Below are positions 6,641 to 56,816 of a stretch of 64,000 nucleotides of DNA, in pieces. How positions within the stretch are numbered: the stretch's first letter is position 1; each line of letters opens with the position of its first letter. The notes under the pieces were generated by a model. The model was not told the origin of the DNA and searched no databases. It saw only the letters and a program-made list of their open reading frames with translations. The translations under genes were made by a program, and so were the position numbers. Source of the stretch: Loxodes magnus (taxonomy: Eukaryota > Ciliophora > Karyorelictea > Loxodida > Loxodidae); contig CAMPDV010000008.1 of the NCBI GenBank assembly GCA_946699065.1, forward strand, positions 1,674,001 through 1,738,000, written 5' to 3'.

Positions 6641-7111
6641 ATGAAAGAATCCAACGTAATTGAAGATGAATGGTCTTATGAGGAAGATTTATTTATTATG
6701 GACAAAATGAATAAGAGCAACTGGTTCTACAAATGAACCAAAATTGCAAGGTATATAAATAAAACGTTTCATAACGGTGTGATAGTAAAATGTGATAAGC
6801 AAGTAAAGCGTAGATGGTTATTTGTACTCAATCCGCTTATTAATAATTAGTGGAATAGAGATTAAGCATTAAAATTTGTTAGGATTTCGCAAAAGCATCA
6901 GTGCTAAAGTCGTAGATACTGGTAAAAGCTAAAGAAGGAGTTTTAACCTTACACTTTTAAAATGCTTAAGTTTAAATACAAGTAGTATCAAGCAATGAAA
7001 GAGGCTTAGTTCTTACTCCATCATAAAATCACCATAAAGCAAAGAGTAATAAGCACAGGAAACATAGATTACATTAATTTGCTATGCAAGTAGCTAGAGG
7101 ACTTTTCATGA
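6641..7111 (+). CDS. Myb/SANT-like DNA-binding protein, left-arm copy
   Basis: Read with TAA/TAG as Gln, this gives 156 codons to a TGA at 7109-7111. Residues 9-60 match a Myb/SANT repeat: DEWSYEEDLFI with Trp at 11, then the second-tryptophan position at codon 32 followed by TKIAR, then DKQVKRRW with Trp at 59. Codon 32 is TGA (6734-6736), exactly where the copy at 45992-46462 has TGG. Either UGA is read as Trp here or the frame is interrupted. The C-terminal part (residues 70-156) is basic and conserved among copies (NRDQAL, RISQKHQ, RRYW, LCKQLE) but matches no family I know. ATG 6641 was chosen because all good copies start at the equivalent position, just after the NYTCGTA motif. Homology among copies fades after the terminal TGA. 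The role is probably sequence-specific DNA binding in the nucleus; the target is unknown. The right-arm copy shows no difference over the stretches I compared. Confidence 0.8.
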
Positions 7112-8358
7112 AGATTTTAGTTATATAAAAGAATAAACCATATAAATAACTTTAATCATCTAAAAATAAAATTATTTTACAGTAAGTTATCCATTAAGAA
7201 ATATTCTAAGATAATTAAAAAATATTGTAAATAATTAAATTTAATTAAGAATATCTAAGAGGCTGAGAAAGAAATTATCCAAAGTTTAAATAAACTTAAT
7301 AAAGCTTAATCAAGTATAAATTTGAAGGAAAATTAAGAAATGGTATGAGATTGTATTTTATATAATATTTTTAATTTATACATTAGAGAAATTAATTAAT
7401 AAGCTTATTATTTTAGTTAATTTCAATTATTCTAAAATGCCTTTTGAAATAAGTCTAACTTTATTTTTACATAAGTAGAGTTTTTTCTTCTAAACTAATT
7501 TTTTTTGAAAATATATGAACTTTAACCTAAGTATAAGGATATCTTAGAATATTTCATAGTAACCTTATTAAATATCCAATTAAGTTGTTCCTCTTATATC
7601 AAACACTTTAACAAAATTATTATTAATTTCATTTATAAGTAAAACTAAAATTAGTTAAAGTAGCCTTTGATGAATAAATATTTAAAATAAAATAAAAATT
7701 TAAATAAAGTGAGCATTTGCTTTATGTAATGAGCATAATGTACAAATTATCCTAAAATTAGAATTATTAATATTTTAAAAATAATCCTTAATCATCTAAC
7801 TAAAGATGATATATATCTATACTTATTTCAATCATTTATAATTAGCTTTGAAGTTATGACATACATTTATAGATTAATTATGAATCTAGCAAATTGTTGC
7901 TATAATTTTGATTGTTTAATATTCTTTTAATAGTAACCCATATATTTTGATTATCCAGTTATAATAAATTTAATATTTAGTTATGAAAACTATTTTCTAA
8001 ATTAATAGTTGTATATTTTAGTAAGTATTTCAAAGTTATTGCTATTATGTATTTTACTATTATTGTGCTTAGATATATGAATTTCATTCAATTTATTTAT
8101 ATATTATAACTTTGCTTATTAACAAAAAGTAAGAAAGTATCTGATTGTATAAAACTACAATTATGAAATAATCCTATTGAAAATTAGTTACTTATTAGTA
8201 GCAAAATTAATTAACATTTTTTCGCTAAAGTTTTATCAATTAAGCATATTCAGACTAAGTTAAAATATAGTGATGAATACACTAAACTATATATATTTTT
8301 GATTAAATAAAGAAATAAATAAATTTCTATATATTATATCCTTAATTATAGGATATTT

Positions 8359-11300
8359 TGTAATGATGAATGCACTTGCTGTTTTAATTTAACTTAAGTT
8401 ACTCATTTAAAAAATAAATTTAAATTTGACTTTGCTTTTAAGATCTTGAGTGATAATTAATTATAATTGAAAATAAGAGAATGATCTTATTATAAACTTT
8501 TTTTATTTTTTATAATTATTCTTATTTAACTAAGAATTTAAAACTTTTTTATAATTTTCAAGGATTTCAAATATTTATTTAGATTTATTCATAGAAAAGG
8601 GACTTTAATCACTAAAGAAACTGAATCAATGATCATAAATTAAATTTTCTTAATATTATTCTTGCCAGAATATAAAATTTCGATTCCGGCTTTATTCAGA
8701 TTTTCTTGTGAAGTCAAATATCCTAGGTTTTAGATTATTGCGATATTATTAATAGCTTCAAATATTTTGTAAAAATTTTATCTCTAATTTTAAATTTTAG
8801 GATTATAGCTTATTAAATCTACTACTTATTTCTCTAACCTCATAGGTAGAATATCCCCAGTCTTAATTATTATTTTTTATTTTATTTTTATTTTAGTTTA
8901 ATAATCTTAGGAATTTACAACCATTTGAAATAGACTTTCATATAATATGCTTATTTTCCGTCAAATAAGTTAAAAGCATCTATTACTAACCTTTTGATAG
9001 CTTTTTAAATGGTTTTAGTATTAGACATGCTTTTAGTAGCGCTATTAACTCTATAGACATAATTCCTATATTTTATCTAATTTATTAAATTTAATTAAAT
9101 CTTTCTCCACAAACTAGTAATAAAGCTATAAGGATTTTATTTTTGTTCTTAATACTTAATAAAGATCATACGCAAGTATAAAATACATTTAGAGTATACT
9201 TTAATTCGTATCAAAACTAATAAGCTTCTCAATTAAATAAGACTTACTAATATCTATTATTCTAAAAATTAAACTTAAGATAGGTAAGTTAAATAAAAAT
9301 TACTTATTTACTATTTTAGCCTAAAGGATAAATCATTTCTTTCTGTTTAGAAGTTCAGTTTATATTATTTTAACTTTGATAATTCAGCAATCATAAAATT
9401 AGCAAGCAAGCTAAGAGAAAAATAATTTAAAACATTATATATATAATTAATTATAGTGGGTCTGCTACTTTTAGACAATCCACTTTTAAGTTTAAAGTAA
9501 GGCATAAGTTCCAGCCTAAAATTTATTTTGGTTTTTTCAATCATAAGTCTTGGTAGTTTTTAGATTGCTATTTCTAATCTTTTCCGATAGGTCGAATCCA
9601 GTCACTTTTAAATGAATTCGTTAACTTCAATTTAGATACAAGAAGCTTCTTTATTTAATCGGAGTATTTTTTTCCAGTAAATTTTGCCTCTTAATTGCAA
9701 TAAAGTTTGAATATTTTTCCATTAATTTTCTATGATTCTCTTTTCTTTTAGTCTAAATTGTAAACAATTTCACACTTTATGTCCCGGCCGCTTGCAATAT
9801 CAGTATCTAATTATTTTCTGATAGAGAATATAATTTATCGTAGGTTTTGGTTCCACATCTATCGGATCATTCATTGATGTCTTTTAGAGGAACATGTTTT
9901 CGGTCAGCTCTGCGAATTGATTGAATTTTGCTTCTAATTATATATTCTGATATTTGTTGCCTACTTAATTCATTTTTATGTAGATTTTTATTAATTATCA
10001 AGTATTAAATTTTTCTTTTTAGCTCTTATATTCGTCTTAAAATTTTAAAATATTCCTATTGCATAATTTTGAGATCTTAAAAATTTTTACTGATCGTAGT
10101 TTAAAATGAGATGAATCCTTTTAAGAAGAGACTTTTATAAAGAAATGTTCTATTTTATATTTATAGTATTTAGTAAGCTTGAATTAGAGAAAATGAAATA
10201 AGAAAAGATAGATTTCTTGTGTCTTCAACAAAATTTAAAGAAATTTTAGAAATATCAATATCTGAATTTTATTTGAACAACAAATCTCATAGAAATAGAA
10301 TGAAAATAGAAATAATATTCTTAAAGCTAAAAATTCTATTAATTCATTTAAAAGTAAATGCCCTAATAAGTAAATCAAAAAGGATTAGACTAAACTAATT
10401 TGTACAATAATAACTCATATCAAAAATGGTTTGCCTTTATTAAGATTTACGCAATAAGAAAATTAGATTAAAGTGTGTTGTAAAAATTAAGAATTAACAA
10501 TTTTGTATTTTATCTAAGGAAATATTTGCCCAAATTTAAAGCTAGTTTATAATATAAAATAGGATAAATAAAAGCTATTTATTGCATTTCTTTTATTACC
10601 TAAGCAACTACAGCAAAATATGATATTATTCATTATAGCTATTAAATGTTTCAGAATCAGCTAATAATCATCATTTATTTCATTAATTAAATAAAATATG
10701 AAATTCTAATTCAGAAAGTTCCTAAAAAGCTTAAGATTTAATTATTTTCACTACTCTTTAAAATTAAGTCGAATAAATTGGTAAAAAATCAGACCGAAGT
10801 CTCAAAGACTCCTTTTAACATAAAAAAAAGACGAATAAAAAAGTAATTTTTTTAAAAATAAAAATAAATTGATGCTTAAAGCTTTATAAATTAAATTAAC
10901 TTTATTTGAAGAAAGTTGATTTATTTCTTTAAGCATATGTATAAATAATACTCTTTTATTTTTGTCTATCTATTTATTTGCATTTTAATAGCCTAATGAG
11001 AATTTTTCAAAGGAAATAAAATAAATAGGATAAATTTTAATATCTTACATTCCATTTTTATCATCATTTCAAATATTTTAGATTTACGAAGTAATTCATA
11101 AAAAGCTAAAAACATGATTATCTAAAACATTTTTAAGCTTTTTAATTTAAGCTTAATATCTGCATTACTAGAACTGAACTTAAATTCATAAAGACTGAAT
11201 ACAGCTAAATAAAATTTAAATTTATTTAATTTTTATTATTTATTCAAAAATATTGTTATTTGCTATCTTTATTTTTAAATTTTTACCTTAAATTTATTTC

Positions 11301-11378
11301 ATTTGCGAATTTTTTGAAGGCTTTTATTTACTAAAGCAGGTAAATAATTTAATGGTAATTAATTAATTAAAATTATTT
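8359..11378. other. Spacer between arms, first part
   Basis: Mostly AT-rich DNA without recognised genes, apart from the zinc-knuckle relic around 9460-10010, where G+C rises (for example the CCCGGCCGC stretch near 9782). The first 30 bases after the left arm show faint similarity to DNA on the far side of the retroposon at the right-arm junction, so the original arms may have reached a little further inward. Confidence 0.4.
9460..10010 (-). mobile_element. Zinc-knuckle (gag-like/ORF1-like) relic
   Basis: The minus strand carries a decayed relative of the zinc-knuckle proteins at 19262-19999 and 28968-29714. A CKRPGH core typical of retroelement zinc knuckles is followed about 35 residues downstream by a GKIYWKK stretch, the counterpart of the GxIY motif in the whole-looking copies. 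An acidic stretch with the NDPxDxEP pattern precedes the knuckle and recurs in the relic at 27020. The element is old and broken in several places. I see no flanking duplication, terminal repeat or polymerase domain. Assignment to the same family rests on motif order, not on a database search. Confidence 0.5.
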
Positions 11379-11806
11379 TCATTCCATTCTTTCTAAATGT
11401 TTATATAAATTCCACAATCATTTTTTCTTTCAAATTATCTTTTTTGAGACTCATTACAAGCTTTGACTCATTCAGCGCTTAATGCTACTTAAATTTGAAT
11501 TTCGACACTTCGAATGTATATGACTTTAGCTCTTGCTTCAGTTTTTTCCTATACTTTTTCATTAATGTTAGCACTCCTGATATATTTCACAAAAGTAATT
11601 GCTTGTACTCTATTCCACCTACTATTTGCAACATGCTTAATCTCATTCTATCGTATACGATTTTTGTTTGTCAGTTTTTACTGTTTGATTATGATACTAT
11701 TGTTTATTAATGTTCCTCGATATTTTAGTTAATTTTTTGTAAATATTGGAAAATTCCACCTTATCAATAACGAATTTATTTTCCTCATATGGCCACTCTT
11801 CATAAA
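11379..11806 (-). pseudogene. Decayed Myb/SANT-like gene
   Basis: The minus strand aligns with the Myb-like copies at 38044-38505 and 56364-56816. The start of the Myb repeat survives (EEWPYEENKFVIDK, then TKISR), as does QTVKTDKQ, and the copy ends at the family's terminal LERME-TGA sequence. After TDKQ a small deletion and frame change destroy the KRRW segment, further frame changes follow, and no ATG sits at the usual start position. The second-tryptophan codon is TTA here. It is a relic of the subfamily that includes 38044-38505 and 56364-56816. Short open frames on the plus strand here (11495-11732) are just its antisense. Confidence 0.75.
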
Positions 11807-14800
11807 TTAATAATAAGCTTTAAGAGGAAATATAATTTCTTAAACAGAATTCAGATTAAAAGTTATTGGCTATAAATAATGACTTTATTTAAATAGGGAA
11901 ATTCTCATAAACTAAATATCTTTACTCATTTCCTTACTTATAATCTAAGTAGCTAAATAACTAGCAATTATATTTAGAATAGATTTATATTTTACCTTTG
12001 ATATTATAAGATTGATAAACTCATTTGTAGAAGCATTTATTAAGATATAACCTTATTTATTTAATATTTTGCAAATACATATGAATTAATAAAACGTGCC
12101 TTATAGTTTGAGCTAATTATAGCTTAAAGACAAACTAAGAAACATTTAGTAGCTTTTTATACTTATATTTATTTCTAGCTTTTACTTAATTTTAGTATTC
12201 ATTTTAAACTTTATAAGCATACAATTAACTTAAATTTATTTTTAAGATAAAATGCTTTTCATTTAAAAAGAGAATTAGATTAATAAATTATTATATCATA
12301 ACTAATAGTAATAAGTATAATATGGTATTAACTTAAAGAAAATAGATGGCAACTCTATCCTTTAATAATTAGCAAATTACTCATGGCTTAATTAAAAATT
12401 GAAAAAAAATTGTCTCCTTAAAGTCTTAATTTTAATGATTAGTAATACAAAGCTCAATTTATAAAAGTCAAAGTTATCTTTAAAGGTTGAATTACTAAAA
12501 TTTTATGTTCATAGTAAATATGCTTGATGAACCAAATAAGATCATTTACAAAACTAAATTATATAGAATCTAGCCATGATTTTGGTGAATCAATGAATTT
12601 TTTAATTCTTTTAGTAGATTATTTCTAAAATTTACAATTTAGAATTGGTTATGGATCTTATTTATCTTATAGTTATTACTATTATATTGAAATGTAAACA
12701 TTTAAGATGAAATTATAACTCTAGATTGAAATCCTTTTAGGATATTAAATAGTATGAAATGATTTTAATAAGTTATTTACCTTACTTTAAGTATTAGTTA
12801 TTTAGCTCATCTTTTTAGTTATTCATTAACTTATAAAAAAACACATTTTTATTGCTAATATCTTTCTTTTTGGGAAATAATACTAGTATTAATAATTATG
12901 AAATTTATTTTATTAAAAAACGAAAGAAGTTCCTAAGAATAGATTTCAGCAAACATCATTTGAACAATAGTAAAAAGATATTTGGAACATTAAGTTTAAA
13001 GTAACTATTTGTTGTTAATTAATTGTGTTCACTTCTTAAAATTAAAACATCATATTATTAGATTTGATTGAGATCTATATATTTTATATTCTACATTGCT
13101 TTTGCTTATTTAATCACAATTTAAAGTTATATCATAAAGCATAATATATCATATTCTCATATTAATAGATTTACTTGTTTATATTAAATTCCTATATAAT
13201 TTCCATCTATTTTCTTTCTTAAATACTCTATATTAAAAAGTATATCTTATAGATAAATTTGGTATATAAATTTAGATCTACGTAGTTACAAGAAAATACA
13301 CTATTTACTAATAATCTAAGAAGATGATATTTAAATAAAGATTAAATCTAATTTAATTACTTTAACCTTTTTCCACTTCTTTTGCCATAAAAACTAAATA
13401 AGAGCTTCTACCTATTTGCTTATTATAAAAGATTTTTTCCTAAGTATTAAACTTAAACTAGAATATTAATCAAAGAAATTAGTTTTTCTAAGTAATTTCA
13501 TAACATAATTCTAGGTATTAAAATTAAAAATTAGGATATTTTTAGTAAAATAACTAGATAATAAAACAAACTTAAAATATCATTATTATAATTGATAAGC
13601 TTCCTATTATTAAGTAAAGTCATTATTAATGTCTTATTATTAATAGGCTTTAATAAATTTGCTTTTTGAAAATTTTAAATAACTAAATTATCTGAAAATA
13701 TACACTAGTGTTATCATATTTTTAAACTAAAGATAAAATTTAATTAAAATAAAGCTTAGAAGTTGTTTTAGTATAAAACTTTCCAAATAAAAATTAAATT
13801 CCATTCTCTTATTATAACATTTCCTTTTTTTAAGATAAACATATTTAATTTATGAATTAAATTATTGACTAAAAGTTAACTCAAAAACAATTATTTTTTA
13901 GTTTAAAACTAATATCTTAAGCACGCATAATTCTTAAAATTTTTATAAGAATTTAACTAATTTAATAAACTATTTCTTGATTATAAAGAAAAATATCTTA
14001 TTTTTATTTAGAAATATCCAAGTGCTTCTATTTAGTTTTGTGGAGTTAAACTTAACATTATTTACTCAAACATTCTGTCTGATTATTTGTATTCGAATAT
14101 CTGAAATCATTAACTATAATGTGTAAAATTATATTCTCTCTTCAATAAATTTAATCTATTTTTAACAATAAAGAAAAAATTAAGGATGATTTATATTGCG
14201 ATAACAGTTTTAATTAGTAGTAATTAAATTCTGAATCTTTTTCATATGCTTTTATGATATAAATTATTTTTTAACATAAAAGACTTAATATTTGCTTCAT
14301 TTTATAATTTGTATTCATTAAAATTTAACATGAAGCTTTATCCTTTTCTTGATTGCAATTTAATGCTTATATTTTCTGATTTTATGGAAATGTTTTATTT
14401 AATTTTGCATTTTAATCTTTTATTTTTCAAAGAAACATTAGCAGCATACTTGCTTTTGTTTATCAAACATTTTTTGTAGTATTTTCTTAATAAAAAATAG
14501 CTCCATGAAATTAATTTTTCTTAAAATATCCTTAATTTTTCAATCACTTGCTCTTAGATATAAAAAATATTCTTAAAAATATAAATATCCAAACTAAATT
14601 AGGTAATTTATTCAAGAAGCATAAAAGAGAATTTTATTAAGTATCAAAAGAAAATTTATTAATAGTTAGAAAAATATTGTTATTATGAGATAGTTCACCA
14701 CTGATTGTAACTCATTGGGTTAATTTACAAATTTCATTATAAAAAATTTCAAATTTTTATGCTTTTCTGCAAGTAAATTGCTTTGTATTGCCAGCAAGAG

Positions 14801-15149
14801 TCACTTTTAATCGTTTATTATAGCTAAAAATTTTTATAGAATATACATTCAAATTAAATATAATAAAATTGATAAATTTTATCCTGAAACTTCATATAAA
14901 AATCGTCTAGTATTCATTCTAATTTTTCAATTTTTTATTTTTATTTAAGATTTTATATTCTTTGATGCATTGATTGTATAAAGAACTCTTAAGATTAATG
15001 TTATACTTATTTTTAATATTTTGTTCGGTATGAAAGAGTTTTATAATTCTTATTTCTAAGATATTAATTAAAAGAGGTTTGCTATTTCTTAGAAGACATT
15101 TTTCAATATTAAATTATAATAATTATTATTAATTATAGAGGATCTGTCA
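11807..15149. other. AT-rich spacer DNA, no gene recognised
   Basis: No tRNA, no member of the two dispersed families and no motif-bearing frame was found in either direction. Confidence 0.45.
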
Positions 15150-15570
15150 TTATTAGTCTAAAAACTTTTAAGTTTGATTGTACTTATTCTAATATAACTT
15201 ACGTGCTTCCTACAAAGTTGCACAAAGATTTCTTGCTCTTCTTTTTCTATTTCTCAGCTTTCTTCCTCCTCTTGTAGAATGATATACCCTTATGTTATTT
15301 TAATATCTTCTTCATTTTAATATTGTTTGCTTATGCTTTTGCTTCATGCAATTCTAATTCTTAGTTTAATTCTCTTCTATAATTTGTCCTTATTGCGTAA
15401 AATATAGTAAATTCAGTTTATTCTAGAGTTTCAATTCTTCTATCTTTTTTTTTTATAAATTACTAGCATGATCTAACTAAATGTCCTTTTCTCTTGCAAA
15501 GCCAGATTCTAAGTATAGTTATCTGTTTATAAATTAGTGTTTATTCCAACTCAATGTCCAAAGAATTTCC
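15150..15570 (-). mobile_element. Zinc-knuckle (gag-like/ORF1-like) relic
   Basis: The minus strand shows a CKRKGHLVRSC knuckle core with QQF directly after it, matching the order seen in the relic at 9460-10010. About 30 residues on, QGQI corresponds to the GxIY motif. A basic Arg/Lys-rich stretch lies further downstream. It is a broken, old copy with several breaks. No flanking duplication or tail was identified. Confidence 0.45.
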
Positions 15571-19235: not shown

Positions 19236-19261
19236 AAAATAAATGTGTATATAATTTGAAA

Positions 19262-19999
19262 ATGGAAGGCTTAAAGAAAGGTTTCTACACCACATCCAAG
19301 AAATAGGAGAGGAAACCAGAAACCGAAATAACCCAGACCCCTGCCAAGTAACAAGAATCTCATCTATCAGGAACACAAACCAGGGAAGAGTACTAACAGG
19401 CTAGGAAAATCCACAAACTTACCCCGGCATCTTAGGAGAAGCCAAGGAAACAACCTAAGTCTGCTCTACATTAGGAGACATCGGAAGTCTATCCTCCCTG
19501 ACAAATGAACGTGGAGCAGCTCATTAAAGTAGTGCTAAGCCTCTAACAAGAGGTAAAGAAGCTTAAAAGGGAAAATACGAAACTAATGGACCTGATTGAG
19601 CAACAGGGTACAAGAGAGCTCCGAATGGCAAACTGGGAAAGGGAGCTCGACAACATCTGGAAACACCAACAGGAACAAATGAAACATATGAATGACTCAA
19701 TAAAGACAATTTAAGAGCAGAACAAGCAAATAATCTAGAGCCAGAGCCAAGTGCAAGAAATTCCTAAGATAGAGAAAATGAACATTGAAGAAGAGCAAGT
19801 AATCAAAATGGCAAGAGAGAAAAGAATTAAGAAGAAATGCTATTTCTGTGGTAGCTATAGACACCTATATAGGAAATGTAGGAAATTCCAGGAATACAAA
19901 AGAGAATATTGGATAAGAGAAAAGAAAGAAAGAGAAATGCTCTATTGTAGCGCAGAGGGGAATATATATAAAAAAAAGATGGAATAAAAGAAGTGGTGA
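19262..19999 (+). CDS. Coiled-coil/CCHC zinc-knuckle protein (ORF1-like)
   Basis: With TAA/TAG as Gln this is a whole-looking frame of 245 residues ending at TGA. The N-terminus MEGLKKGF and a following KPET are shared with the copy at 28968. Residues about 82-160 form a charged, Gln-rich coiled coil (EQLIKVV, LQQEVKKLKREN). A CCHC knuckle follows at Cys193, Cys196, His201 and Cys206, spaced x2-x4-x4. About 25 residues later comes GNIYKKK, the family's GxIY motif. Such proteins bind nucleic acid: this is the layout of LINE ORF1 or gag-like nucleocapsid proteins, and the flanking duplication and tail favour the LINE side. Codon use is richer in G and C than in neighbouring DNA, consistent with a recent arrival. 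The substrate and enzymatic partner are unknown. Confidence 0.8.
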
Positions 20000-20106
20000 A
20001 ACAAGAACCTTAGTAATACGGAATAAGGTAAACCAAGAAATGTAAATAGGAACAAGGAAGAGAAAGCAAGACATAAATCAAGAAAACTTTTTACAAACTT
20101 ATTTTA

Positions 20107-20131
20107 CGCGGCGGTGATGTAGACTGCTGCG
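20107..20131 (+). other. GC-rich 3' hairpin of retroposon
   Basis: CGCGGCGGT pairs with ACTGCTGCG over nine positions (two G-U pairs on the RNA) around the loop GATGTAG. It sits about 110 bases after the stop codon and just before the ATT-rich tail. The units at 28944-29788 and 30463-30780 also have a hairpin near their 3' end. A role as a recognition structure for a reverse transcriptase is plausible, by analogy with LINE 3' hairpins. Confidence 0.6.
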
Positions 20132-21427
20132 AAACATTTAAATCAAATTATTATAATTATTAAAAAAATAAATGTAAGATAAATATCCTATAATTAAGGA
20201 TATAATATATAGAAATTTCTTTATTTCTTTATTTAATCAAAAATATATATAGTTTAGTGTATTCATCACTATATTTTAAATTAGTCTGAATATGCTTAAT
20301 TGATAAAACTTTAGTGAGAAAACTTTAATTAATTTTTCTATTAATAAGTAACTAATTTTCAATAGGATTATTTCATAATTGTAGTTTTAAACAATCAGAT
20401 ACTTTCTTGCTTTTTGTTAATAAGCAAAGTTATAATATATAAATAAATTGAATGAAGTTCATATATCTAAGCACAATAATAGTAAAATACATAATAGCAA
20501 TAACTTTGAAATACTTACTAAAATATACAACTATTAATTTAGAAAATAGTTTTCATAACTAAATTTTAAATTTATTATAACTGGATAATCAAAATATATG
20601 GGTTACTATTAAAAGAATATTAAACAATCAAAATTATAGCAACAATTTGCTAGATTCATAATTAATCTATAAATGTATGTCATAACTTCAAAGCTAATTA
20701 TAAATGATTGAAATAAGTATAGATATATATCATCTTTAGTTAGATGATTAAGGATTATTTTAAAAATATTAATAATTCTAATTTTAGGATAATTTGTACA
20801 TTATGCTCATTACATAAAGCAAATGCTCACTTTATTTAAATTTTTATTTTATTTTAAATATTTATTCATCAAAGGCTACTTTAACTAATTTTAGTTTTAC
20901 TTATAAATGAAATTAATAATAATTTTGTTAAAGTGTTTGATATAAGAGGAACAACTTAATTGGATATTTAATAAGGTTACTATGAAATATTCTAAGATAT
21001 CCTTATACTTAGGTTAAAGTTCATATATTTAAAAAAAAAATTAGTTTAGAAGAAAAAACTCTACTTATGTAAAAATAAAGTTAGACTTATTTCAAAAGGC
21101 ATTTTAGAATAATTGAAATTAACTAAAATAATAAGCTTATTAATTAATTTCTCTAATGTATAAATTAAAAATATTATATAAAATACAATCTCATACCATT
21201 TCCTAATTTTCCTTCAAATTTATACTTGATTAAGCTTTATTAAGTTTATTTAAACTTTGGATAATTTCTTTCTCAGCCTCTTAGATATTCTTAATTAAAT
21301 TTAATTATTTACAATATTTTTTAATTATCTTAGAATATTTCTTAATGGATAACTTACTGTAAAATAATTTTATTTTTAGATGATTAAAGTTATTTATATG
21401 GTTTATTCTTTTATATAACTAAAATCT

Positions 21428-21898
21428 TCATGAAAAGTCCTCTAGCTACTTGCATAGCAAATTAATGTAATCTATGTTTCCTGTGCTTATTACTCTTTGC
21501 TTTATGGTGATTTTATGATGGAGTAAGAACTAAGCCTCTTTCATTGCTTGATACTACTTGTATTTAAACTTAAGCATTTTAAAAGTGTAAGGTTAAAACT
21601 CCTTCTTTAGCTTTTACCAGTATCTACGACTTTAGCACTGATGCTTTTGCGAAATCCTAACAAATTTTAATGCTTAATCTCTATTCCACTAATTATTAAT
21701 AAGCGGATTGAGTACAAATAACCATCTACGCTTTACTTGCTTATCACATTTTACTATCACACCGTTATGAAACGTTTTATTTATATACCTTGCAATTTTG
21801 GTTCATTTGTAGAACCAGTTGCTCTTATTCATTTTGTCCATAATAAATAAATCTTCCTCATAAGACCATTCATCTTCAATTACGTTGGATTCTTTCAT
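21428..21898 (-). CDS. Myb/SANT-like DNA-binding protein, right-arm copy
   Basis: This is the arm counterpart of 6641-7111. Start, end and the TGA at codon 32 are the same, and I see no difference over the stretches I compared. Flanking arm DNA does differ in places, for example CAA(TTA)GG against CAA(TTA)AG just after the gene. The same Myb repeat is present, with Trp at 11 and 59 and TGA at the second-tryptophan position. Two copies in mirror orientation, better matched than their flanks, suggest recent gene conversion between arms or selection on the gene. The function is inferred as DNA binding; the target is unknown. Confidence 0.8.
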
Positions 21899-21903
21899 TT
21901 TTA

Positions 21904-21910
21904 TACGAAC
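21904..21910 (-). promoter_or_regulatory. NYTCGTA motif before Myb-like start
   Basis: The plus-strand TACGAAC here is GTTCGTA on the coding strand, five bases before the start codon. It is the arm duplicate of the site at 6629-6635. Confidence 0.4.
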
Positions 21911-22332
21911 ATTTAAATAAAAAGGAAATAAGTTAATTTATCAAATCATTGATTTAAATTAAGCTTAATCTTTTATTAGCTAAATTAAATAGAACCAACA
22001 AGCAAGTTTGCCAAGCATTTATTATTTTACTTGCTCATTTTAATTAACTAATGCTTATTTCTCTTTTATAAACCCTTGAGTCTAAAGCCTTTTAAAGATG
22101 ATTAAGACTTAAGCTAATAGCTTATTTAAATGCCTTTATAATTCTATTGCTTTAAATTAAATTTAAGCAATATTATTATTATTATTCTTAAGTATCTTCT
22201 ATTAAGCACTGAGTCTTAATCATAACTAGAGAGTGCTTTTATTAAGTAGTAAGATAGATAGGAATTAGCCTTTTATATTCTTTCACTAGCATATTAGTTG
22301 GAATTTAAGTTTCCTTTGCCTTTAATTAGTGA

Positions 22333-23244
22333 ATCTAATAAATAAACTAAAGAAGGCAATATAGCTTATTGATTAACTAAAATAGAATACTAGTACTTTG
22401 GTCTTTTAGTAAATATCATAAGCTTAAATACTAACAACAATCACTCTTATTTATTTAGAACTTCACAGTTGCTACTAGTAGTAAAGTGATTAAGTTATAA
22501 TAAGCTAGCTAGATGTTAAAGCTAATAAGACTTAGATAGTAATCAAATGTATTTATATCAATGCTTTTAGCTTTTATACTTATCTCTAAGTTAAACTATT
22601 TACTTTAGTATGGGTAGGATGTTCCCAGTTTAAATAGCGATAACCTATTTTAGTCATTGAAAATGCATTAATATCTAAACTAAATTTTACCAGTTTAATC
22701 ATTAGCAGTCTCAAAATAGTCAAAGTTAGTATTTAAAGAAATTGGATAAGGAAATAAAGGATAAACTTAAAAGTGCACATTACTTACTGTGGAACTTCCT
22801 CATATAAGTATTCTCAGTATAGCCATCAAAAATTCAGATCTCCTATACAAATTAACTTAATAATCTAGCAAAATTAGGCAGAGTCTTGTAGCTAAGCTAT
22901 AGCAAATATAAGGTTAAGCACTAATAATTAAATTTAATGAATTTGAATAAAGAAAATAAAATACTTAATAGAAAGTAGCTAAGGAAATAAGATAAATTAT
23001 CTTATTATAACTAAAACCTAAGAAAGATTTATAGTTTAATAAAAGATCTTAAAAACAACTCCAAAAACATAATCCTAACTTAGTAGGATATTTAAGTCTC
23101 AAGTATGTTTTCATAATTTATGCTGGCTTCTATAGAAAAAGATAATAAAAATATAATAATTTAATTAATTAAAAGGCTTTTCAGAGTAAACAAGCATAAT
23201 ATAGCTAAACTATTGCACAGATCTACATTTAATAGTTATCACAC
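22333..23244 (+). other. Arm DNA with a 304-codon TGA-free frame, not called as a gene
   Basis: This frame has no TGA for 304 codons, but TAA and TAG are frequent in it, and G+C by codon position, counted by hand over about 200 codons, is nearly flat (58/51/50). At this base composition several such runs are expected in the window by chance. The two arm differences checked outside third positions would change the residue. I therefore treat it as non-coding arm DNA. Confidence 0.4.
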
Positions 23245-23899
23245 TGAATAGAAATTAAAATATGAAAAGCTTTAACTATTTATTAGCTTTAATCCAATTA
23301 CTATTTATCTCTAAAACTACAATCATGCTATTTTAATCCTTAAACTAAGTATAAAGTATAAAACTTTTAAATTTAGATAGCAAAAATAAAATTGATTTGA
23401 AATACTAGTAAGACAAATAATAAGAACTTTAATATCTAAATAAGCTTTTAAAATTAATTATCTTAGTTCTTATTCTAAATGATACTATCTTTATAGATAA
23501 TAGCTTAATAAGCTATTAATCTATTCAAATACTTTATATAATTAAAAATAAAATCCATTGAAACATAAGATAAATATATAATATGAGTGTATAGAGTTTA
23601 TTAAGAAGTATAGCACTTATCTAAAATAGGAATTAACTATAACTAATAAACTAAAATTTAAGAATTATTGGCTTTGTATATTTGATAGAAAGTTAGATTA
23701 TTATAAAATAATCTATTTAATAATTATATTTACTTCCTTAATTTAACTAAAGAATTAGCTAAGATGAATAAAATAGAGATATATCTTAATCAGCTTTTTA
23801 AGGATTTAAGCTTTCAAAAGAATAACCCTATAAATGAAAAAAATTTTAAAAGTAGCAATAAAAAGATTTAAATAGCTAATAAAAAATTTATTATCTAAT

Positions 23900-23967
23900 C
23901 ACATATTTTATAGAGGCTAGAATATTCGAATCTCATCTAGAAGACCTGAGTTCAAGTCCCGATGTAA
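23900..23967 (+). pseudogene. tRNA-Glu relic in right arm
   Basis: This is the arm duplicate of 4568-4635. It resembles tRNA-Glu(CTC) from the D-arm region through the T loop (GAATATTCG, CTC, AAGACC, TTCAAG) but does not form a paired acceptor stem. A run of six T follows three bases after GATG. It reads CTGAG at the T stem where the left arm has CCAAG, so at least one arm has changed since duplication. Confidence 0.6.
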
Positions 23968-26250
23968 TTTTTTAATTATATAAATTTGAATAAATAAAAA
24001 TAAATTTAAATAAAAGATATTAATTACACTTTATTTAACTATAGCAAAACTTTAATTGTTTTTGATGCTAAAAATAATAAAAAGTTAAACAATAATTCTT
24101 TTTTAAATTATAATAGGTTTTACTTAAATTTTAAGCTAATAAATTTCAATGTACTTGAACATAATAAAGTATACGGTTTGAGTCTAATTTTTGCTATACT
24201 AAATATAGCAAAGTGAATGAAGAAAGTTTAAATGCTAAGTATTTGTTTATCTAAATGAATAGATTATTAATTTAAATATCAATATCATTCAATTATAACA
24301 ATACTTAAATTTATTTATTCGATAAGATATTTAGTTTCTTAGCTTTAACTGTAAAGATAGAAAAATTTGCTTATAAATTCTATTTAGGGAATAATTTTAT
24401 TTAGTCCCTGTTGTATGATTATTGATGACTTATAAAAATAAAAATAACTCTATTAAATTACTTTGCTGAAGAAGATTGAGAATAGAACTTTGTTTACTTA
24501 AGCTATTGGTGTATTTTAGATAAGAAAATAGATTTTTTTTATATTTTAAATCACATTTTGCTCTAATCTAAGTGAGATCTAACTATAATACTTTCCCATT
24601 TTTATAAAGATTTATTAAGGATTTATGAATAAATGGATAGTGAGATATTTCAATTATATTAAAGCTGCAAGGTAATTAAATTATAAAATAAATAAAATAT
24701 AAAATGACTAAATAAACTATTTAATTATTAGTACAGCTACTTATATCTCTATATTAATTCATTATAGTTCCTATATCTAACTATTTCTACTTCTATAGAA
24801 AGTTGCTTAATAACTATATAAATTATCCTTATTCTAAGCAAAACTTTCTTAAATTAAATTATTTAAATCTAATTTATTTTTATTTTATGTTTCTTCAATA
24901 AAAGCTAATAGATGCTTTTCTTAATTTTAAAGATAAGAAATTAAAGATTTAAGTGAAAATGATTTAGTTACTTAATAGAATAGAATGCTTTAAATATTTT
25001 AGTCTCTAAACATTAAAATTATTTATGCATAATAAATTTTATTTCTCTCAATCAGTTCCTTATTTAAAGTTTTTAAGGCTTTTTACTTAAAATTACTATA
25101 TTTTAAGATTTCATAAAATTCCTTTCTTTCCAATAAGTGTAGGTACGTATAAAAGATTATTTAATTTACAGAACACTTTCTAGAAAATCCAAAAAGGAAA
25201 TCTAAATAGCATTTTTAATATCTTGGTATTGCTTTGAATGCTAATAAAAATGTAAAAATAACCTTAGTAATAATTTAGAATTTCTAACTTAAAAGAAACA
25301 TCAAACATATAAAAAATGATAATAAAGAGAATATTCTTTAAGTAAACAAGAAAGAAAATAATCAGTCTTTCTATAAGAATACTAAATAGTTGGTATTTAT
25401 AAAGCTTTTTTTTAATTAAAGAAGAAAAGAAATGCAAAATGCTTATAATTAAAGTTATTTATTCATTTTTAAAGATTAAAGTTTTTTTAATATTTTTATA
25501 TATGATATGACAATCTTCTAAGATAGCTTTATTTAATTTAACTTAATAGGATATGATCAAAGTAAAATGGAAGCATTAATTACATTCTCAATTTCTAATT
25601 TATTTGAATAGTTACTAGAAACATAATGGAGATTAAGTTGTCGGTAAGATAAAGAATATAAAATTATAGCTTTGTGCTTTAATTAGTAAACTTAAATCAT
25701 AAAATTTAAATTTATTCCATTATTTCTACTAAATCACTAAAACAATTATTTTAATTATTTAATATGTAAAGTTCTATTCTTAGCAAGGAATTTATTAAGC
25801 ATACTTTACTAATTTATCTAATATTCCATTATATTAAAATAATTTTTATTGCTAGTTCATAAATACACTGAAATTTAATTTTTATCATAAAATTAAATTA
25901 GAAAAATATTAAAAATAGGAAATTCTTTTTGCTAGTAAAGGTGGAAATATTTATTTACTTCCAGTTTACTTTTAATTAATATCAATAGTAATAAATCTAG
26001 CATTACTAAGATTTAAATTCATCAGCTTTCAATTGTAAAATATTTTCTTGACTTAAATCACTTGTTTATTAGTCTAGTCAGCAGTAAGGAAATGAATGAA
26101 ATATGGTAAGTTAGAAGTGTTATTATAAGATTTAATTTAAAAAGACATAAGAAATAATAGAAAATAATAATATTATTTATACAGAACTAATTTAACTTAG
26201 TTGTATAATAAAGTTTAATATGAACCTAACTAAAGAAGAATATGAGATAG

Positions 26251-28943: not shown

Positions 28944-28967
28944 ATTACCTTTATATTAATATAAAAA

Positions 28968-29714
28968 ATGGCAGAAGGTCTCAGGAAGGGTTTTTTTCCA
29001 GCTCCATAGAAAAAGGAAAAAAAACCAGAGACTTCTAATTCTTCTCCTACCACGTCTTCTTTAATAATATAATAATTTTCTTAGGCTCTTTAACCCCCAA
29101 ATTTAGAAAAATAAAGATAATCTTAAATTGAATAAGAAATTAAATCAACAGAAACTGACTAAAGCAAGCGAGACTTTTTACTCCCATAGCCACGATCAAG
29201 CAACTACCTAAAAAATAATGTAGAAATTTGAATAGCTAATATAGAATAACTTATGAAATCTATCCGTAACCTATAAGAAGAAGTTTAAATATTAAAGAAA
29301 GAAAACCAAAAATTACTATAGAAAAGTTAAAAAAATGAAGAAAGATTAATGAAACAGGAAATCGAAGTGAAACTTTTGGGAGAAAAAAGAATTTAACCTT
29401 AAACTTTAGCTGAAAATAAAATGGAACTAGAATACACAAAACCCTTAGAGATAACTCCTCCCAGAAGGATCGTCAAGCTGTGCTACCTGTGCAAATCAAA
29501 ATTCCACACATACAAGAGATGCAAGATATATTTGGATAAACAGAGAAGAAACAGTGAAGAGATTTGGAGAGAACTTTCAAGAATTTATGTAGACAAGGAT
29601 GGAAGAATATTTAGAAGGAGGCTTTTTCAAGGGAGTGCCAGAACTCCAAAAAAACTGGGAGTCCCGAACTTTTATTTTAAACCTCAAGGAACGAACTCTG
29701 GAGGTATGTATTGA
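28968..29714 (+). CDS. Coiled-coil/CCHC zinc-knuckle protein (ORF1-like)
   Basis: With TAA/TAG as Gln this is a whole-looking frame of 248 residues ending at TGA. MAEGLRKGFF and KKPET at the N-terminus parallel the copy at 19262. A Ser/Gln-rich segment follows, then a coiled coil (NVEIQIANIEQLMK, LQEEVQILKKEN), then a CCHC knuckle at Cys172, Cys175, His180 and Cys185, then DGRIFRRR at the family's GxIY position. The tail beyond that (QGSARTPKKLG) is longer than in the other copy and resembles the 5'-truncated copy at 30463-30780. It probably binds the element's own RNA. Start choice: the ATG lies ten bases inside the unit and aligns with the start of the other copy. Confidence 0.82.
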
Positions 29715-29715
29715 A

Positions 29716-29731: not shown

Positions 29732-29757
29732 GGAGATATGAACACTTTAATTTAGTA

Positions 29758-38043: not shown

Positions 38044-38505
38044 ATGAAAATAATCGAGGAAGAGTGGTCCTATGAAGAAGATCAGTTCATTATTGATAAG
38101 ATGAAGCTACCTAACTATTATTGCAAGTGAACTAAAATATCAAGACACCTTAATAAATAACTACATCAAGATCAAACAGTGAAAACTGACAAACAAATAA
38201 AACGTAGATGGCTGAGTGTACTTATGCATGTTGCAAATAATGAATGAAATAGATAACAAGCAATGACTTTTGTAAAAATATCTTAGAAGTATTAGCATAA
38301 AAGAAGAAGATATTGGAGCAAACTGAAAAAAGAGCTAAAACCTTATACAATCAAAATGTTAAAGTTCAAATTTAAATAGTATTAAGCACTGAATGAAGCA
38401 AAGTTTATTTTGAGTCATAAAAGCATATCGATAAATAAAAGATCAAACACGGAACGTGTAAGTTGCATAAACATACTATGTAAGTAGTTAGAAGAAATAG
38501 AATGA
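38044..38505 (+). CDS. Myb/SANT-like DNA-binding protein, subfamily II
   Basis: With TAA/TAG as Gln, 153 codons run to a terminal TGA. The Myb repeat reads EEEWSYEEDQFIIDKM, then the second-tryptophan position, TKISRHLNK, then TDKQIKRRWLSVL. Codon 29 (second Trp of the repeat) and codon 68 are both TGA. The first is TGG in the copy at 45992-46462, and the second is TGG in the copies at 6641, 45992 and 56364. There are no indels relative to the copy at 56364-56816 apart from the C-terminal length. Gln codons are mixed: TAG occurs at two positions where other copies have CAG or CAA. The C-terminal half (QKYQHKRRRYW, KLKKELKPYT, LCKQLEEIE) is basic and of unknown fold. It is probably a nuclear DNA-binding protein, alone on this strand with no neighbour gene. 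Confidence 0.78.
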
Positions 38506-45991: not shown

Positions 45992-46462
45992 TCACGAAAA
46001 GTTTTCTAGTTGCTTGCATAGCAAATTAGTATGATCTATATTTCCTGAACTTATTGTTCTTGGTTTTGTAGTTGTTGAATGATTAAGTAAGAACTTTGCT
46101 TCTTTCAGTGCTTGATACTACCTGTATTTAAATTTAAGCATTTTAAAATTATAAGGTTGAAACTCTTTTTTTAGATTTTACCAATACCTGCGACTTGAGT
46201 GTTGATGCTTTTGAGAAATCCTAACGAAAGTTAATGCTTAATCTCTATTCCACTCGTTGCTAACCAGCGGGCTAAGTACAAAAAGCCATCTACGTTTAAT
46301 TTGCTTATCAGTTTTTACTATTTCTCCGTTATAAAACACTTTATTAACATGTCTGGCTATTTTCGTCCACTTGTAATACCATTTGTTCAATTTCATTTTC
46401 TCCATAATAAATAAATCTTCCTAGTAAGACCATTCATCTTCAATTTGGTTTTCTTCCTTCAT
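45992..46462 (-). CDS. Myb/SANT-like DNA-binding protein, uninterrupted copy
   Basis: This is the reference copy. It has 156 codons with no internal TGA and ends in two consecutive TGA codons (45992-45994 is the first). Trp at residues 11, 32 and 59 define the Myb repeat (DEWSYQEDLFIMEKM, YYKWTKIARHVNK, TDKQIKRRWLFVL), and Trp71 (NEWNRDQAL) begins the conserved C-terminal half. The loop before the third helix is longer than in animal or plant Myb repeats. Gln75 is TAA here and CAA at 56364, while Gln84 and Gln87 are CAA here and TAG or TAA in other copies; this proves the UAR = Gln reading. It is closest to the arm copies at 6641 and 21898. It is likely a DNA-binding protein of a dispersed family. 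No adjacent gene suggests a pathway. Confidence 0.85.
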
Positions 46463-46471
46463 TTTTATAAA

Positions 46472-46478
46472 TACGAGC
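46472..46478 (-). promoter_or_regulatory. NYTCGTA motif before Myb-like start
   Basis: The plus-strand TACGAGC is GCTCGTA on the coding strand, nine bases before the start codon and preceded by TTTAAAT, as in the arm copies. Confidence 0.4.
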
Positions 46479-48105: not shown

Positions 48106-48177
48106 TCCGCATTAGTCTAGTGGTTAGGATATTCGGCTCTCACCCGAAAGACCCGGGTTCAAGCCCCGGATGCGGAA
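48106..48177 (+). tRNA. tRNA-Glu (CTC)
   Basis: A 72-base cloverleaf: acceptor stem TCCGCAT/ATGCGGA with A as discriminator, D arm with AGTGGTTAGGAT, anticodon stem TTCGG/CCGAA around loop CTCTCAC (anticodon CTC), and T arm CCGGG-TTCAAGC-CCCGG. A T5 run follows at once. TTATAAAA lies about 20 bases upstream, similar in place to the TATA box of the tRNA-Asp genes. It looks fully functional and is the reference for the two relics in the arms. Confidence 0.96.
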
Positions 48178-51100: not shown

Positions 51101-54100
51101 AAGTTCTTAGTCAAGGAACTATCATTTTATAAAATATCATATGAGACTAGTAAAATATAGCCACTATTTTCAGGTATATTTGATATACATTAAATGTATG
51201 CCTAATTAAAATTGATTATCTATCATGAACTATTTAAAAGATTAAAATTTGCAAAGAAATAAATTTGTACTTAAAAGCTCAATTAGAAGAAGAAAATGTT
51301 CATATGAGTGGTAAAATTACTAAATCATTAATGTAATTTATAGATAAAAAGGGAGATGAAAGATATAATTTATTTTATTTCCTTTAATCATATTTTAAAG
51401 AGCAATAAGCTAGCTAATTAATTCTATAATCAAATCTTCTAAAGATAATTATTTTAAATTTATTACGATAAATGCATCCTTAATATGCTTAATACCATAT
51501 TATTTTTGCTTATCTTATAATTCTGCAAAGCTTTTATGAATTAATTATAGAAAGAAATAAAAATCTGATAATTTATAAATATTTACTTTAAGAGAAGAGA
51601 TAGGATTTGAATTCTTTCGTATTGTAATTAAAACTTCCTTGCATTTATTTATTGCCATTTATAACATTTTTCATGGCATATTTATTTAGGTTATAAGCAA
51701 AGGAGAAATTCCGCTTCCATTTACAAAAAAAATTATTTTTTAGATAGCCTTAATCATTTTTGCATATTAGCATATCATACTAAACAAATCATTTAATAGC
51801 TTAAAAGATAATTTTATAAGCTATAAAAGCCAAAATTATACCATGCTTATATTTTATATACCAGAAGACTTAAATATCTTAAAAATGTAGATATCGTACT
51901 ATATCAACTTAAATATATAGCTAAGGATTATTTGGATTTTGATATACACTTTATAATTATAAAAGTATTGTTTCAATTTTTTCGCATTCATTTAATTTTA
52001 CTTATAGTTTATAAGTAACTACAATCACCATAAGTAAACTATAATGTATCTTCCAATATTGACACATTGCTTTATCCGTTCTTGTGTACTCTAATCTTTT
52101 TCAATTTATCTGCGATAGAATATTTTCTAAATACTAAGCTCTCTCTTTTATTTACAAGCTATTTGCTCTTCTGTCTATGACTAAATTGAACCTTGTACTA
52201 TAGATATTACTAATTATACACATATTTAAACTTATATATTTAGTTAGAATGTTTTAATACTGGTAAGATTTAATTCAAAGTAGAAAAAGCATAAAGCTAA
52301 ATAGAATATATAATTATTTGATATTTTAACTAAGAATGAAAATACTTATATTAGCAGTCTCATAATCTCTTTAGTATTAAAAAATGTTATAAATGAATAC
52401 CAAACAATTAAACTGTATAAACAATAACTTTAAGAACTTCTTGAGGATTAGTTCAAATAAAAGAGCTTAATTGAGCTAGAATTCAGTTAAAATGCTTTTA
52501 AGTTCGAAATATATAGGAAAATTCTATTAGTCAGAATCTTAGCGCAAGTTAATCATGTAAAAAATATTAGAAATATAACTATATCAAGAAATATAAAGCC
52601 TATTTATTTAATTTATTTCTTTATTTAAATTTTAGTTATTTTTACTAATTTTAAAATCATTTTTTTCCTTTAAATCCATTAGCAAAGCTAAGAGTTTGAT
52701 CTTTAATTAAAAATTACTAGAGTAAAGTTATGAATAAATTAATAATAAGAGAGTAAGCTTTATGAATCTAAGCTTTTTGAGATAGATAATAGTATTGAGA
52801 AGAAAAAAGTTATTAATAAAATTCTCTAAAATAACAAAGATAAGTACTTAGTAAATTCTCCCTGTCTATAGTTCGAATGTTGGTATTTAAAGTAGAAACT
52901 TTCTTAATAATAGCAAAAGTAAGATTAAATAAAAACTTTAAGTATTTGGTTGAAAAATTTAAATAAGATTTATTAGAATGTAAAAATTACGAAGTAGCGT
53001 TAATGCTTCAATGTAAAAAAGAATTAAAAAAGAATTAATTTTGCAAGTTCTTATTAAATTTATTTAAATAGCGAATTTCATTTATATGATATTTAGATTA
53101 TATTGATATATCTTTTATATACACTCATATATTTAAATCATATCTCAAACATTACTATAAATATTTCAAATATGAATGCATTTTTAATACACCAATTTTA
53201 TTAGATATATTAGATCTGATTTTATATTAAAGAATAGTTATCTATAAAATAATTAAATTGTATATTATTCCTAGATTTACTAGATGCTATTTTAAAATTC
53301 TTGTTATGAAATTTAAATTTTGGTAGATTAGTTGTTTTTGTATATCCAGAACAACTTTATTCTCGAATGTGATAATGTATATAACTATCTAATTTTAGTT
53401 TTAATAACTGATTATCAAGTTATTTTTTCAATTTTTTTAATGATTTTTTATATTTTTTCCATTTCAAATACTTTATTTTTAAGATTATACGCTAGTTTTG
53501 AAATACCTCAAGTTTTAAGTGTTAATTTCTTTTTAAATGAAATTAAGTTTTATTTTCTATTAGATTGCTATGATTAAAAAATTTTTGCTAATTCAAGAAT
53601 AACCTTTCTCCTTTATTTATGGTATCTTACATTTATATTTATATCTTTTTAGTAGATTAAGTATATTTCTTTTGATTTCTTCGAACAATTTATCGATAAT
53701 ATAGCTAATATTAGAATTAGCCAAACCTTTGATTTAAATAGTTTTTTAATTTTATCTTAAGTTAGTTAAGTAGTAAACTTAGAATCAACTGCTTTTACTA
53801 AAGGATATTTTATTTTGCTCAACCAAAGTAATTAGTGTTATATCTCTAATATAGCTTAAAACAAGTATTAACGAGTTTATTTTCCTAGTTTAGATAACAA
53901 AACACTGCTTATTGGCTTATTTAATTACTTACTCATTTAAATTAACTTTCTCCTTCACTTTAAAATACAAATTGTAAACTTTTAAATTTATTCTATTTTG
54001 CTATTTCCAGCTTTTTTACTCATTTTAATGAAATAATCTTAAAAAAGTTATAGTGTAAGAATGAAATAAGATAATTTTCCATATATAATAGATGAAAGAT

Positions 54101-56363
54101 AATAGAATAAAGCATACTAAATGCACCATGAAATAAGTATTGTATATAATAGAAATAAAAGGTATAGGATAATCTAAAAATATGAGTATTTCTAAAATAA
54201 AAAAACATATATTAATTAAAGTGAAAAATGCAGAAGCAGTCAAAACTTACAATATTGGCATATAAGTTTATATAATCTCTAACTCTTATAATTAATTCCA
54301 ATTTGATTAGACAATCAAAGCTCATGCAAATAATCTAAGATATTTAAAATTTGAAAGGAGGAAAAATAAGATGAAGAGACCAGATGTTATCAAATCTAAT
54401 AAGATTTTCAGGAATAAATTTTTCTAGGTATTCAACTTATTATCATTTATAGTAATTAATTTCATAGATTTGTGGTATAAAACTTTATTCTATAAAGATA
54501 AGGAGAGATATAGAAGGGATTTATCTTAATGAAAATTGATAAACCTTTATTATCTAAATTGCTGAAATTCTAATTTCAGCGTAATCATAAAAATCTTCCT
54601 AGTTAAAATTTCATAAGAGATTAAATATTGGAAATGTATTCTTTGAAAAGAGATTTATATTAGGCAGGTTACATAAATGCATAAGTAAGTTATAAGATAA
54701 AAGAAATCTTTATTTATGAAGAATCATGTATAAATATATAATTAAAAGGGTATAATATCTATAACATTGCTTAATATTTTATAATTCTAACTAATTTGTT
54801 TTATAGTTTATAAGCCTATCCAAATTAAGGTAATCCAATAAATTAAGCTATAGTATATAAATTTAAATCTCTCTAAACATATTCAGAGTAAAGCTTAATA
54901 ATAATCACAAGGAGTTTACCTGATAGATGCAATTGATAACTATATTAAGAATAATTTAAAATATAATGTCTCGAAATATTCTAAATTTGAATGACTGTTT
55001 ATAATATTTATTGTGAAATTAAGATATTCCAAACTCTTTAATAAATATATGAAAAGAAAAAAGGTATGAAGTAACCTCTGTATATGGTAATATTATATAT
55101 TTAAGCTTATTTTAAAATTTTATTCTTTAAATGATTATGGCACTATTTTATCCTTCATTAAGCAATTAATTAAATCCTAGGATAAATTATGCTAATTTGG
55201 AAAAATTTAGTTGGAAGATTCCTGAAAAAATAGAATCTTTAGCGCTAGAGATAGATTTTAAATTAAAACAATTTTATAAAAGGAAGGTTATATTCTGAAA
55301 AAAAGATGGATACTTAAAAAAATCAATTTAATTTAGTCTTAATCAATTCTTTTTTCTCATACAAAAGTACCTAGAAAATCACTCTTTGCTATACAATATT
55401 TTAAGTTTTAATTGTGAGTTCTACTTCTGTCAAGAATTTTACTTTACTGAAAAATTTTTGTTCATAAAAGATAGTAAATGGCTCAAATATCAGTATTTCA
55501 TGTAGATCTCGATATGATATCTAAGAAAATTAAAAGAAAAATAAAAATAAAAACTACTTTTATATATGGAAAAATTTAATAAGATAGTAATTAAAAAGCT
55601 AGCTAATTAGAAGATAAATTTGTTTAAAAGAGAAAAATCTAAAAAATAATAAAGAAAGACAGCAACAAAAAAATTATAAGATTATAAAGAATTTTCATTA
55701 GTATCTGAAATGATTTAAATTAGAGGAGAAATAATGAAATTTTTATAGTGTTTATATTAAAAATCTAAAACTAAATAAAAATATTTAAAATCTATTAATT
55801 GTCTTGTAATTATCTAAATGTTTAAACTAAAAAGATTTATTTAATATATAAAAAACATCTAATTAAAAAATGAAATAGAAGAACAAAAAAACTTTTATAT
55901 CCTTCTTCTTTATAAAAAAATAAATCAATATTAAAACTAAACCTCTTTTATTAGAAGAGCTTTTTAAATTAGATCTAAACCTTTAAATTTTTATTAGTAT
56001 ATTAAACATTATTATTTAGAATTGTTATTTTATTAACCAAATTTCGGTATTTTTAGAAGTTATTAGTTCTAAATCTTTGGAAATCTAGATTCTTTTATTA
56101 AATAATAAAGTATTATGATATTGAAATAAGTTAATTCTTTATGATTAATTATGTAAACCTCTATCTTTATTGTTTTTTCTTAATAAAAATTTAAATTTAG
56201 AACTTATTCCTTTACAGTACTTCTTGCTAATTATTTAAAAATTGTTTAAAATGTCTACTTTTAAAATTTAATACATAACTAGACAATTTCAATTATTTGT
56301 ATATAGTTGAATTTAGTTAAAATTGTTTGGAACTTATTTAAATATTAAAATTAAAAACTGTTT
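48178..56363. other. AT-rich DNA, no supported gene
   Basis: About 8 kb without tRNA, repeat family member or conserved motif. Short standard-code frames at 53332-53577 (plus) and 54020-54243 (minus) encode only Phe/Ile/Leu/Tyr-rich strings expected from such DNA. Confidence 0.4.
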
Positions 56364-56816
56364 TCACTCCATTCTTTCCAACTACCTGCATAATAAATCG
56401 TTATAATTTACACTCTTCGTTTGATTTATTTCTTTTGCTTTGTGACTCATTAGAAACTTCGCTTCGTTCATTGCTTAGAATTGCTTAAATTTGAACACTA
56501 ACATTTTGAATGTATATGGTTTTAGCTCTTGCTTCAGTTTATTCCAATAGCTTCTTCTTTTATGTTAATACTTCTGAGATATTTTTACAAAAGTCATGGC
56601 TTGTTCTCGATTCCACTCATTATTTGCGACATGCATAAGTACACTTAGCCATCTACGCTTAATTTGCTTATCTGTTTTCGCTGTTTGATCTTGATGGAGA
56701 TGCTTATTAAGATGCCTTGATATTTTAGTTCATTTGTTGTAAAAGTTAGGAATTTTCATCTTATCGAGTATGAACTGATCTTCCTCATAGGACCACTCTT
56801 CTTCAATTAGCTTCAT
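56364..56816 (-). CDS. Myb/SANT-like DNA-binding protein, subfamily II
   Basis: With TAA/TAG as Gln, 150 codons run to TGA at 56364-56366. The Myb repeat reads EEEWSYEEDQFILDKM, then codon 29, TKISRHLNK, then TDKQIKRRWLSVL. Codon 29, the second tryptophan of the repeat, is TGA (56730-56732), while Trp68 (NNEWNREQAM) is TGG. Apart from this TGA there is no interruption or indel, which argues that the frame is under constraint. The C-terminal half (QKYQHKRR, YWNKLKQELKPYTFKM, LCRQLERME) is like the copy at 38044. Gln at QKYQ uses CAG then TAA, against TAG and TAG at 38044. It is probably a nuclear DNA-binding protein, alone on this strand. Confidence 0.8.

Follow-up and report, generated by a model that had tools for sequence, protein, structure and literature searches.

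In-frame TGA at conserved tryptophan positions of a duplicated Myb-like gene family in the karyorelict ciliate Loxodes magnus

Introduction

The dual-meaning genetic code of karyorelict ciliates was reportedly established by Seah et al. in 2022. In karyorelicts including Loxodes, which use NCBI translation table 27, UGA is the sole stop codon and is also read as tryptophan where it stands at a sufficient distance ahead of the poly(A) tail (PMC11441545). Swart et al. 2016 showed a dual UGA in Condylostoma and in the karyorelict Parduczia, and proposed a model in which translation is the default and termination is forced by the end of the transcript (PMC4967479). The presence of UGA as tryptophan inside genes and as stop at their ends is therefore an already published property of karyorelicts. 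A codon that is both stop and sense challenges the notion of a dedicated termination codon.

On the decoding side, UGA is read in Blastocrithidia and Condylostoma by a tRNA-Trp(CCA) with an anticodon stem of 4 bp, a form since identified in Blepharisma and Loxodes as well (PMC13092985, PMC12005148); a Loxodes tRNA of identical structure is credited to Swart et al. 2024 eLife (PMC13092985), and the tRNA-Trp of Amoebophrya has a U26/C42 mismatch (PMC12005148). On the termination side, the eRF1 change Ser70Gly is linked to UGA readthrough in Blastocrithidia (PMC12153298), although Swart et al. 2016 saw no clear association of individual eRF1 changes with the codes of ciliates, which speaks against a simple reading of eRF1 (PMC4967479).

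Here, we compare with these systems a 64,000-nucleotide stretch of contig 8 of the Loxodes magnus assembly (hereafter the window), together with the whole assembly of 705,730,643 bp in 7,843 contigs. Neither the code nor the likely decoding mechanism is new; what is added is a large paralogous family with countable TGG/TGA swaps, including a pair of genes that differ by one codon.

Results

Myb-like genes of the window

The window, the GC content of which is 17-26%, contains five copies of a Myb-like gene, each a single frame of about 150 codons when TAA and TAG are translated as glutamine. The forward-strand copy at 6641-7111 (coding part 6641-7108) has an internal TGA at 6734-6736, which by sequence reading is codon 32 and the second tryptophan of the Myb repeat, and a terminal TGA at 7109-7111. 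The forward-strand copy at 38044-38505 (coding part 38044-38499) has two internal TGA codons, one at the second tryptophan of the repeat (38128-38130) and the other at 38245-38247, where the remaining window copies have TGG, and its terminal TGA is one codon further on. On the reverse strand, the copy at 56364-56816 (coding part 56816-56370) contains a single internal TGA at 56732-56730, also with a terminal TGA one codon further on, and the copy at 45992-46462 (coding part 46462-45995) has TGG in all five tryptophan columns of the family, no internal TGA, and a terminal TGA. The fifth copy, at 21428-21898 on the reverse strand (coding part 21898-21431), is a twin of the 6641 copy and lies in the opposite arm of an inverted repeat (left arm 2270-8358, forward strand; right arm 20181-26250, reverse strand); the gene sequences of the two are the same (dN = dS = 0), so the twin is not an independent observation. 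The arms are each about 6.1 kb, are 98.8% identical over 6,090 columns, and are separated by 11.8 kb. A sixth, degenerate copy on the reverse strand at approximately 11,410-11,810 is frame-shifted and was excluded from all counts.

A preliminary description of this stretch had placed TGA at the second Myb tryptophan in the 6641 copy and its twin, at 38128 and at 56732-56730, with TGG in the 46462 copy, and had pointed to 38245 as a second site at which TGA replaces the TGG of other copies; reading of the sequence verified both sets of codon positions. Its claim that the frames are intact despite internal TGA also held, with no frameshift in the five copies, including the one at 56 kb, which lacks three codons near its end. 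The stop TGA stands at the equivalent place, or one codon past it, in 5/5 copies, in agreement with what had been described.

All three proteins of the window family that were scanned matched Pfam PF00249 (Myb) above the curated cut-off, and the family differs from that entry in its C-terminal half, for which no Pfam family scored above a cut-off. A phmmer search of the PDB gave no match for the protein, and comparison of a weak AlphaFold model (mean pLDDT 60.6) with solved folds was negative at E 0.001. A profile search of the genome with PF13837 was without match, as were its controls. The window also contains two small ORFs with zinc-knuckle-like Cys/His spacing, at 19505-19999 and 29253-29714, neither of which has a Pfam match.

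Distribution of TGA in the Myb-like family across the genome

A genome search with the window protein, in which 150 of 440 first-look candidates were scored, gave at least 150 matches with 0 to 4 in-frame TGA codons each. Of the 150 copies listed, 41 sit on both strands of contig 8 (1,948,968 bp) at 1,538,143-1,938,401, and the last 411 kb of this contig, window included, appears as a large cluster of duplicated Myb-like genes. The existence of this family, with at least 150 matches and a cluster of 41 at the end of one contig, is possibly a detail unreported so far: a word search of the main text of the Loxodes genome paper (PMC11441545) found no mention of Myb, and no Loxodes paper was among the matches listed by a literature search on Loxodes, Myb and transposons.

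For codon analysis, an alignment was built with TGA masked from 36 sequences, comprising the five window copies (two of them the identical twins) and 31 of the 150 genome matches chosen for spread. Five tryptophan columns hold all 55 internal TGA codons of these copies, with 7, 18, 13, 9, and 8 TGA against 28, 18, 23, 26, and 28 TGG, respectively, although the copies are related and the 55 codons do not represent 55 independent events. The sole residue other than tryptophan in these columns is one lysine codon in a partial copy. The same copies contain 762 other codons that are one step from TGA, 133 of them TGG and 629 not. Thus, the claim of the preliminary description that internal TGA is confined to tryptophan positions despite many near-TGA codons extends from the window to 55 of 55 occurrences, and TGA at non-tryptophan positions, which it had named as evidence against its reading, was encountered in none of the 36 copies. 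In the pair L088 and L089, the single difference over 156 codons compared is TGG versus TGA.

The frames of the family are intact and constrained. With TGA counted as tryptophan, the Nei-Gojobori dN/dS had a median of 0.158 and was below 1 in 42 of 42 usable pairs (dS 0.05 to 1); of the 630 pairs, 588 were too similar or too diverged and were set aside. A terminal TGA was found in 33 of the 36 copies, never more than 9 codons past the match end: it was four codons or fewer from the end in 31 copies, and followed after 7 and 9 codons in two more. The three copies in which no terminal TGA was found are L097 and L100, where the match stops early, and L092, which has no TGA in the approximately 12 codons of flank fetched past the match. 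In the 33 copies measured, 59 or more codons separate the last tryptophan codon from the stop, so that this family has no tryptophan site in the stretch just ahead of the stop, where sense UGA is depleted under table 27. Of 244 TAR codons in the Myb-like copies, 202 share a column with CAA or CAG, and glutamine is their commonest partner.

TGA in kinase and actin genes

In-frame TGA is found in many matches to the actin family and to protein kinases, up to four per match. Alignment of conserved genes from the same assembly had been proposed as a check on the tryptophan reading, and it came out in favor: among the best 30 of 136 protein kinase domains listed from 5,592 first-look candidates, there are 21 internal TGA and 61 TGG codons, and 17 of the 21 TGA share their column with a TGG of another kinase. 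The other four stand in columns without any TGG among the 30 (one in one column, three in another). At the conserved tryptophan of the DxWSxG motif, the best 30 domains have 22 TGG, 7 TGA, and one tyrosine. The glutamine signal is weaker in these kinases than in the Myb-like genes: 106 of 185 TAR codons share a column with CAA or CAG, and glutamine is third behind lysine and glutamate.

No internal TGA was listed in the 44 best actin matches, and some lower-scoring actin-family matches have up to four. Genes with high expression may avoid UGA, which could account for the TGA-free best actins. Many full-length actin genes with near-equal scores occur, several per contig, on C266, C711, C707, C437, C524, and C1162.

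tRNA-Trp genes

The preliminary description had suggested a tRNA-Trp with the anticodon UCA as the reader of UGA. That form was not seen in the two pattern searches that bear on it, one with a free first anticodon base and one with UCA; as to the broader expectation of a tRNA-Trp able to read UGA, most listed CCA genes have the 4-bp anticodon stem that does so in other organisms. A tRNA-Trp anticodon-arm pattern that left the first anticodon base free and allowed up to three mismatches, modelled on CCA genes, found 129 places in the genome, compared with none for the reversed-pattern control. The anticodon was CCA, and never UCA, in all 100 of the 129 places listed, of which 2 are on C110, 72 on C148, and 26 on C67. 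Of these 100, 98 have an anticodon stem of 4 bp because its top pair is broken, namely all 72 on C148, where the listed strings have T.C, and all 26 on C67, where they have A.C. ARAGORN paired the other stems in the C148 and C67 genes L113, L114, and L116-L118. The three C110 genes L063, L108, and L110 encode tRNA-Trp(CCA) with a fully paired 5-bp anticodon stem, and ARAGORN places mismatches in the T stems of L108 and L110. Most C148 places follow one another in tandem rows with a spacing of about 241 bp, and all C67 places do so at about 187 bp.

A relaxed tRNA-Trp pattern also gave 129 places (control 70), with one tRNA-Trp gene among 30 cut out, and its UCA version gave 97 places against 308 in its control, which is chance level, none being tRNA-like by eye. 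tRNA-Trp genes were also found with a DNA search scored for 40 of 134 candidates, and the one place found by a pattern with the T loop TTCGA is not a tRNA. A special amplification of tRNA-Trp is not indicated by these counts: tRNA-Glu has 485 places and tRNA-Asp 277 compared with 129 for tRNA-Trp.

eRF1 genes

There are two intact eRF1 genes, L075:1456-2766 and L076:1456-2766, both with TGA as their stop; L075 was confirmed as eRF1 against the PDB, and L076 is eRF1-like in sequence. Relative to human eRF1, L075 has RAQNIKS in place of TASNIKS, alanine for Ser70, phenylalanine for Tyr125, and alanine for Glu55, and the L076 sequence is equal to L075 at the Ser70, Tyr125, and Glu55 sites. The best eRF1_1 match, L074, was rejected as eRF1; its sequence looks by eye like pelota.

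Discussion

We consider it highly probable (approximately 0.96) that the Loxodes magnus genome uses NCBI table 27, with UGA read as tryptophan within coding sequences and as stop at their ends near the poly(A) tail. The codon exchange alone gives UGA as tryptophan inside coding sequences; UGA as stop is found in the Myb-like copies and in both eRF1 genes; and UAA and UAG as glutamine are evident in the Myb-like family and weaker in the kinases. The dual-meaning UGA that the preliminary description inferred from the window is supported by TGA/TGG exchange in both Myb-like and kinase genes. In the karyorelict code as described for Loxodes (PMC11441545) and Parduczia (PMC4967479), UAR is likewise sense and UGA is tryptophan and stop, and no difference from them was found here.

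A heavily duplicated family, with at least 150 matches, a clearly degenerate copy in the window at about 11.4-11.8 kb, and identical twin copies in an inverted repeat, is where one might look for decaying pseudogenes of an amplified repeat, with the TGA codons being ordinary premature stops. Random decay would be expected to put many of the 55 TGA codons among the 629 non-TGG codons that are one step away; none is there and all are in tryptophan columns, indicating that their placement is more than chance. This distribution refutes the pseudogene reading, which we regard as very improbable also because the Myb-like frames are intact, the median dN/dS is 0.16 over the 42 usable pairs, and the same TGA/TGG exchange is present in unrelated kinases. 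If UGA were instead solely a stop, as the terminal TGA of the Myb-like family by itself would allow, then the internal codons would have to yield regulated short products or be passed by programmed readthrough. Such an arrangement is extremely unlikely given that many genes of no common family have TGA, with as many as four in one match, and given the L088/L089 pair, where all other compared codons are equal and the difference is TGG/TGA alone.

UGA encodes cysteine in Euplotes and selenocysteine elsewhere, and the meaning of an internal UGA as an amino acid besides tryptophan thus has precedent in other organisms. In the five Myb-like columns, however, the residue beside TGA is tryptophan, bar the one lysine in a partial copy, and cysteine is already encoded in the Myb-like genes by TGT and TGC (65 codons in total), so that we assign to either alternative amino acid a practically negligible probability. 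The reading of UGA as tryptophan internally and stop terminally is the one that we adopt, and its recovery here illustrates that a genetic code can be inferred from raw sequence alone.

How the two meanings would be separated can be outlined from the known systems. The 4-bp-stem tRNA-Trp(CCA) would read internal UGA codons, alanine at the Ser70 site of eRF1 may weaken termination at these codons, and nearness to the transcript end, acting through poly(A)-binding protein and eRF3, would favor termination, a mechanism put forward earlier for Condylostoma and Parduczia. The C148 and C67 tRNA-Trp genes resemble those of Blastocrithidia nonstop and Condylostoma magnum in having a CCA anticodon and a broken top stem pair, and no UCA form was seen among the 100 places listed of 129. 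The T.C mismatch of the C148 genes matches the U26/C42 of Amoebophrya (PMC12005148), whereas the C67 genes, a second tandem array, differ from the Blastocrithidia/Condylostoma type in having A.C. As in Blastocrithidia, Ser70 of eRF1 is replaced, but by glycine there (PMC12153298) and by alanine here. It is possible, though on balance doubtful, that the two amplified tRNA-Trp(CCA) sets, with the top pair broken as U.C or A.C, together with the eRF1 genes that have alanine at the Ser70 site, are what reads UGA in this organism. If the C148 and C67 arrays are independent, they would form a natural replicate, in which the broken pair and not the particular bases is what matters, and in either case two natural tRNA-Trp variants provide material for testing the anticodon-stem rule. 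The tRNA-Trp arrays with two different mismatches are possibly an unreported detail; none of the matches listed by a literature search for Loxodes tandem tRNA arrays is on this subject by its title, and Swart et al. 2024 eLife may cover them.

Some Myb-like genes have tRNA genes as neighbors, such as the tRNA-Glu(CTC) at 48106-48177, which is near the 46462 copy. On the contigs compared, 20 of 93 Myb-like copies have a tRNA-Glu at a distance of 3 kb or less, in two layouts, compared with a mean of 6.0 and a maximum of 13 in 1000 shuffles, in which duplicates were counted as independent, the lengths of many contigs were guessed, and the tRNA-Glu places were the 100 listed of 485. Because the spacings repeat, the association is probably due to shared segmental duplication. 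For tRNA-Asp there is no excess near Myb-like copies (5 of 91, shuffled mean 5.8), with 78 of 100 listed places (of 277) used and the array on C749 represented by one only. On C749 itself, the tRNA-Asp genes follow one another about 268 bp apart in a long tandem row.
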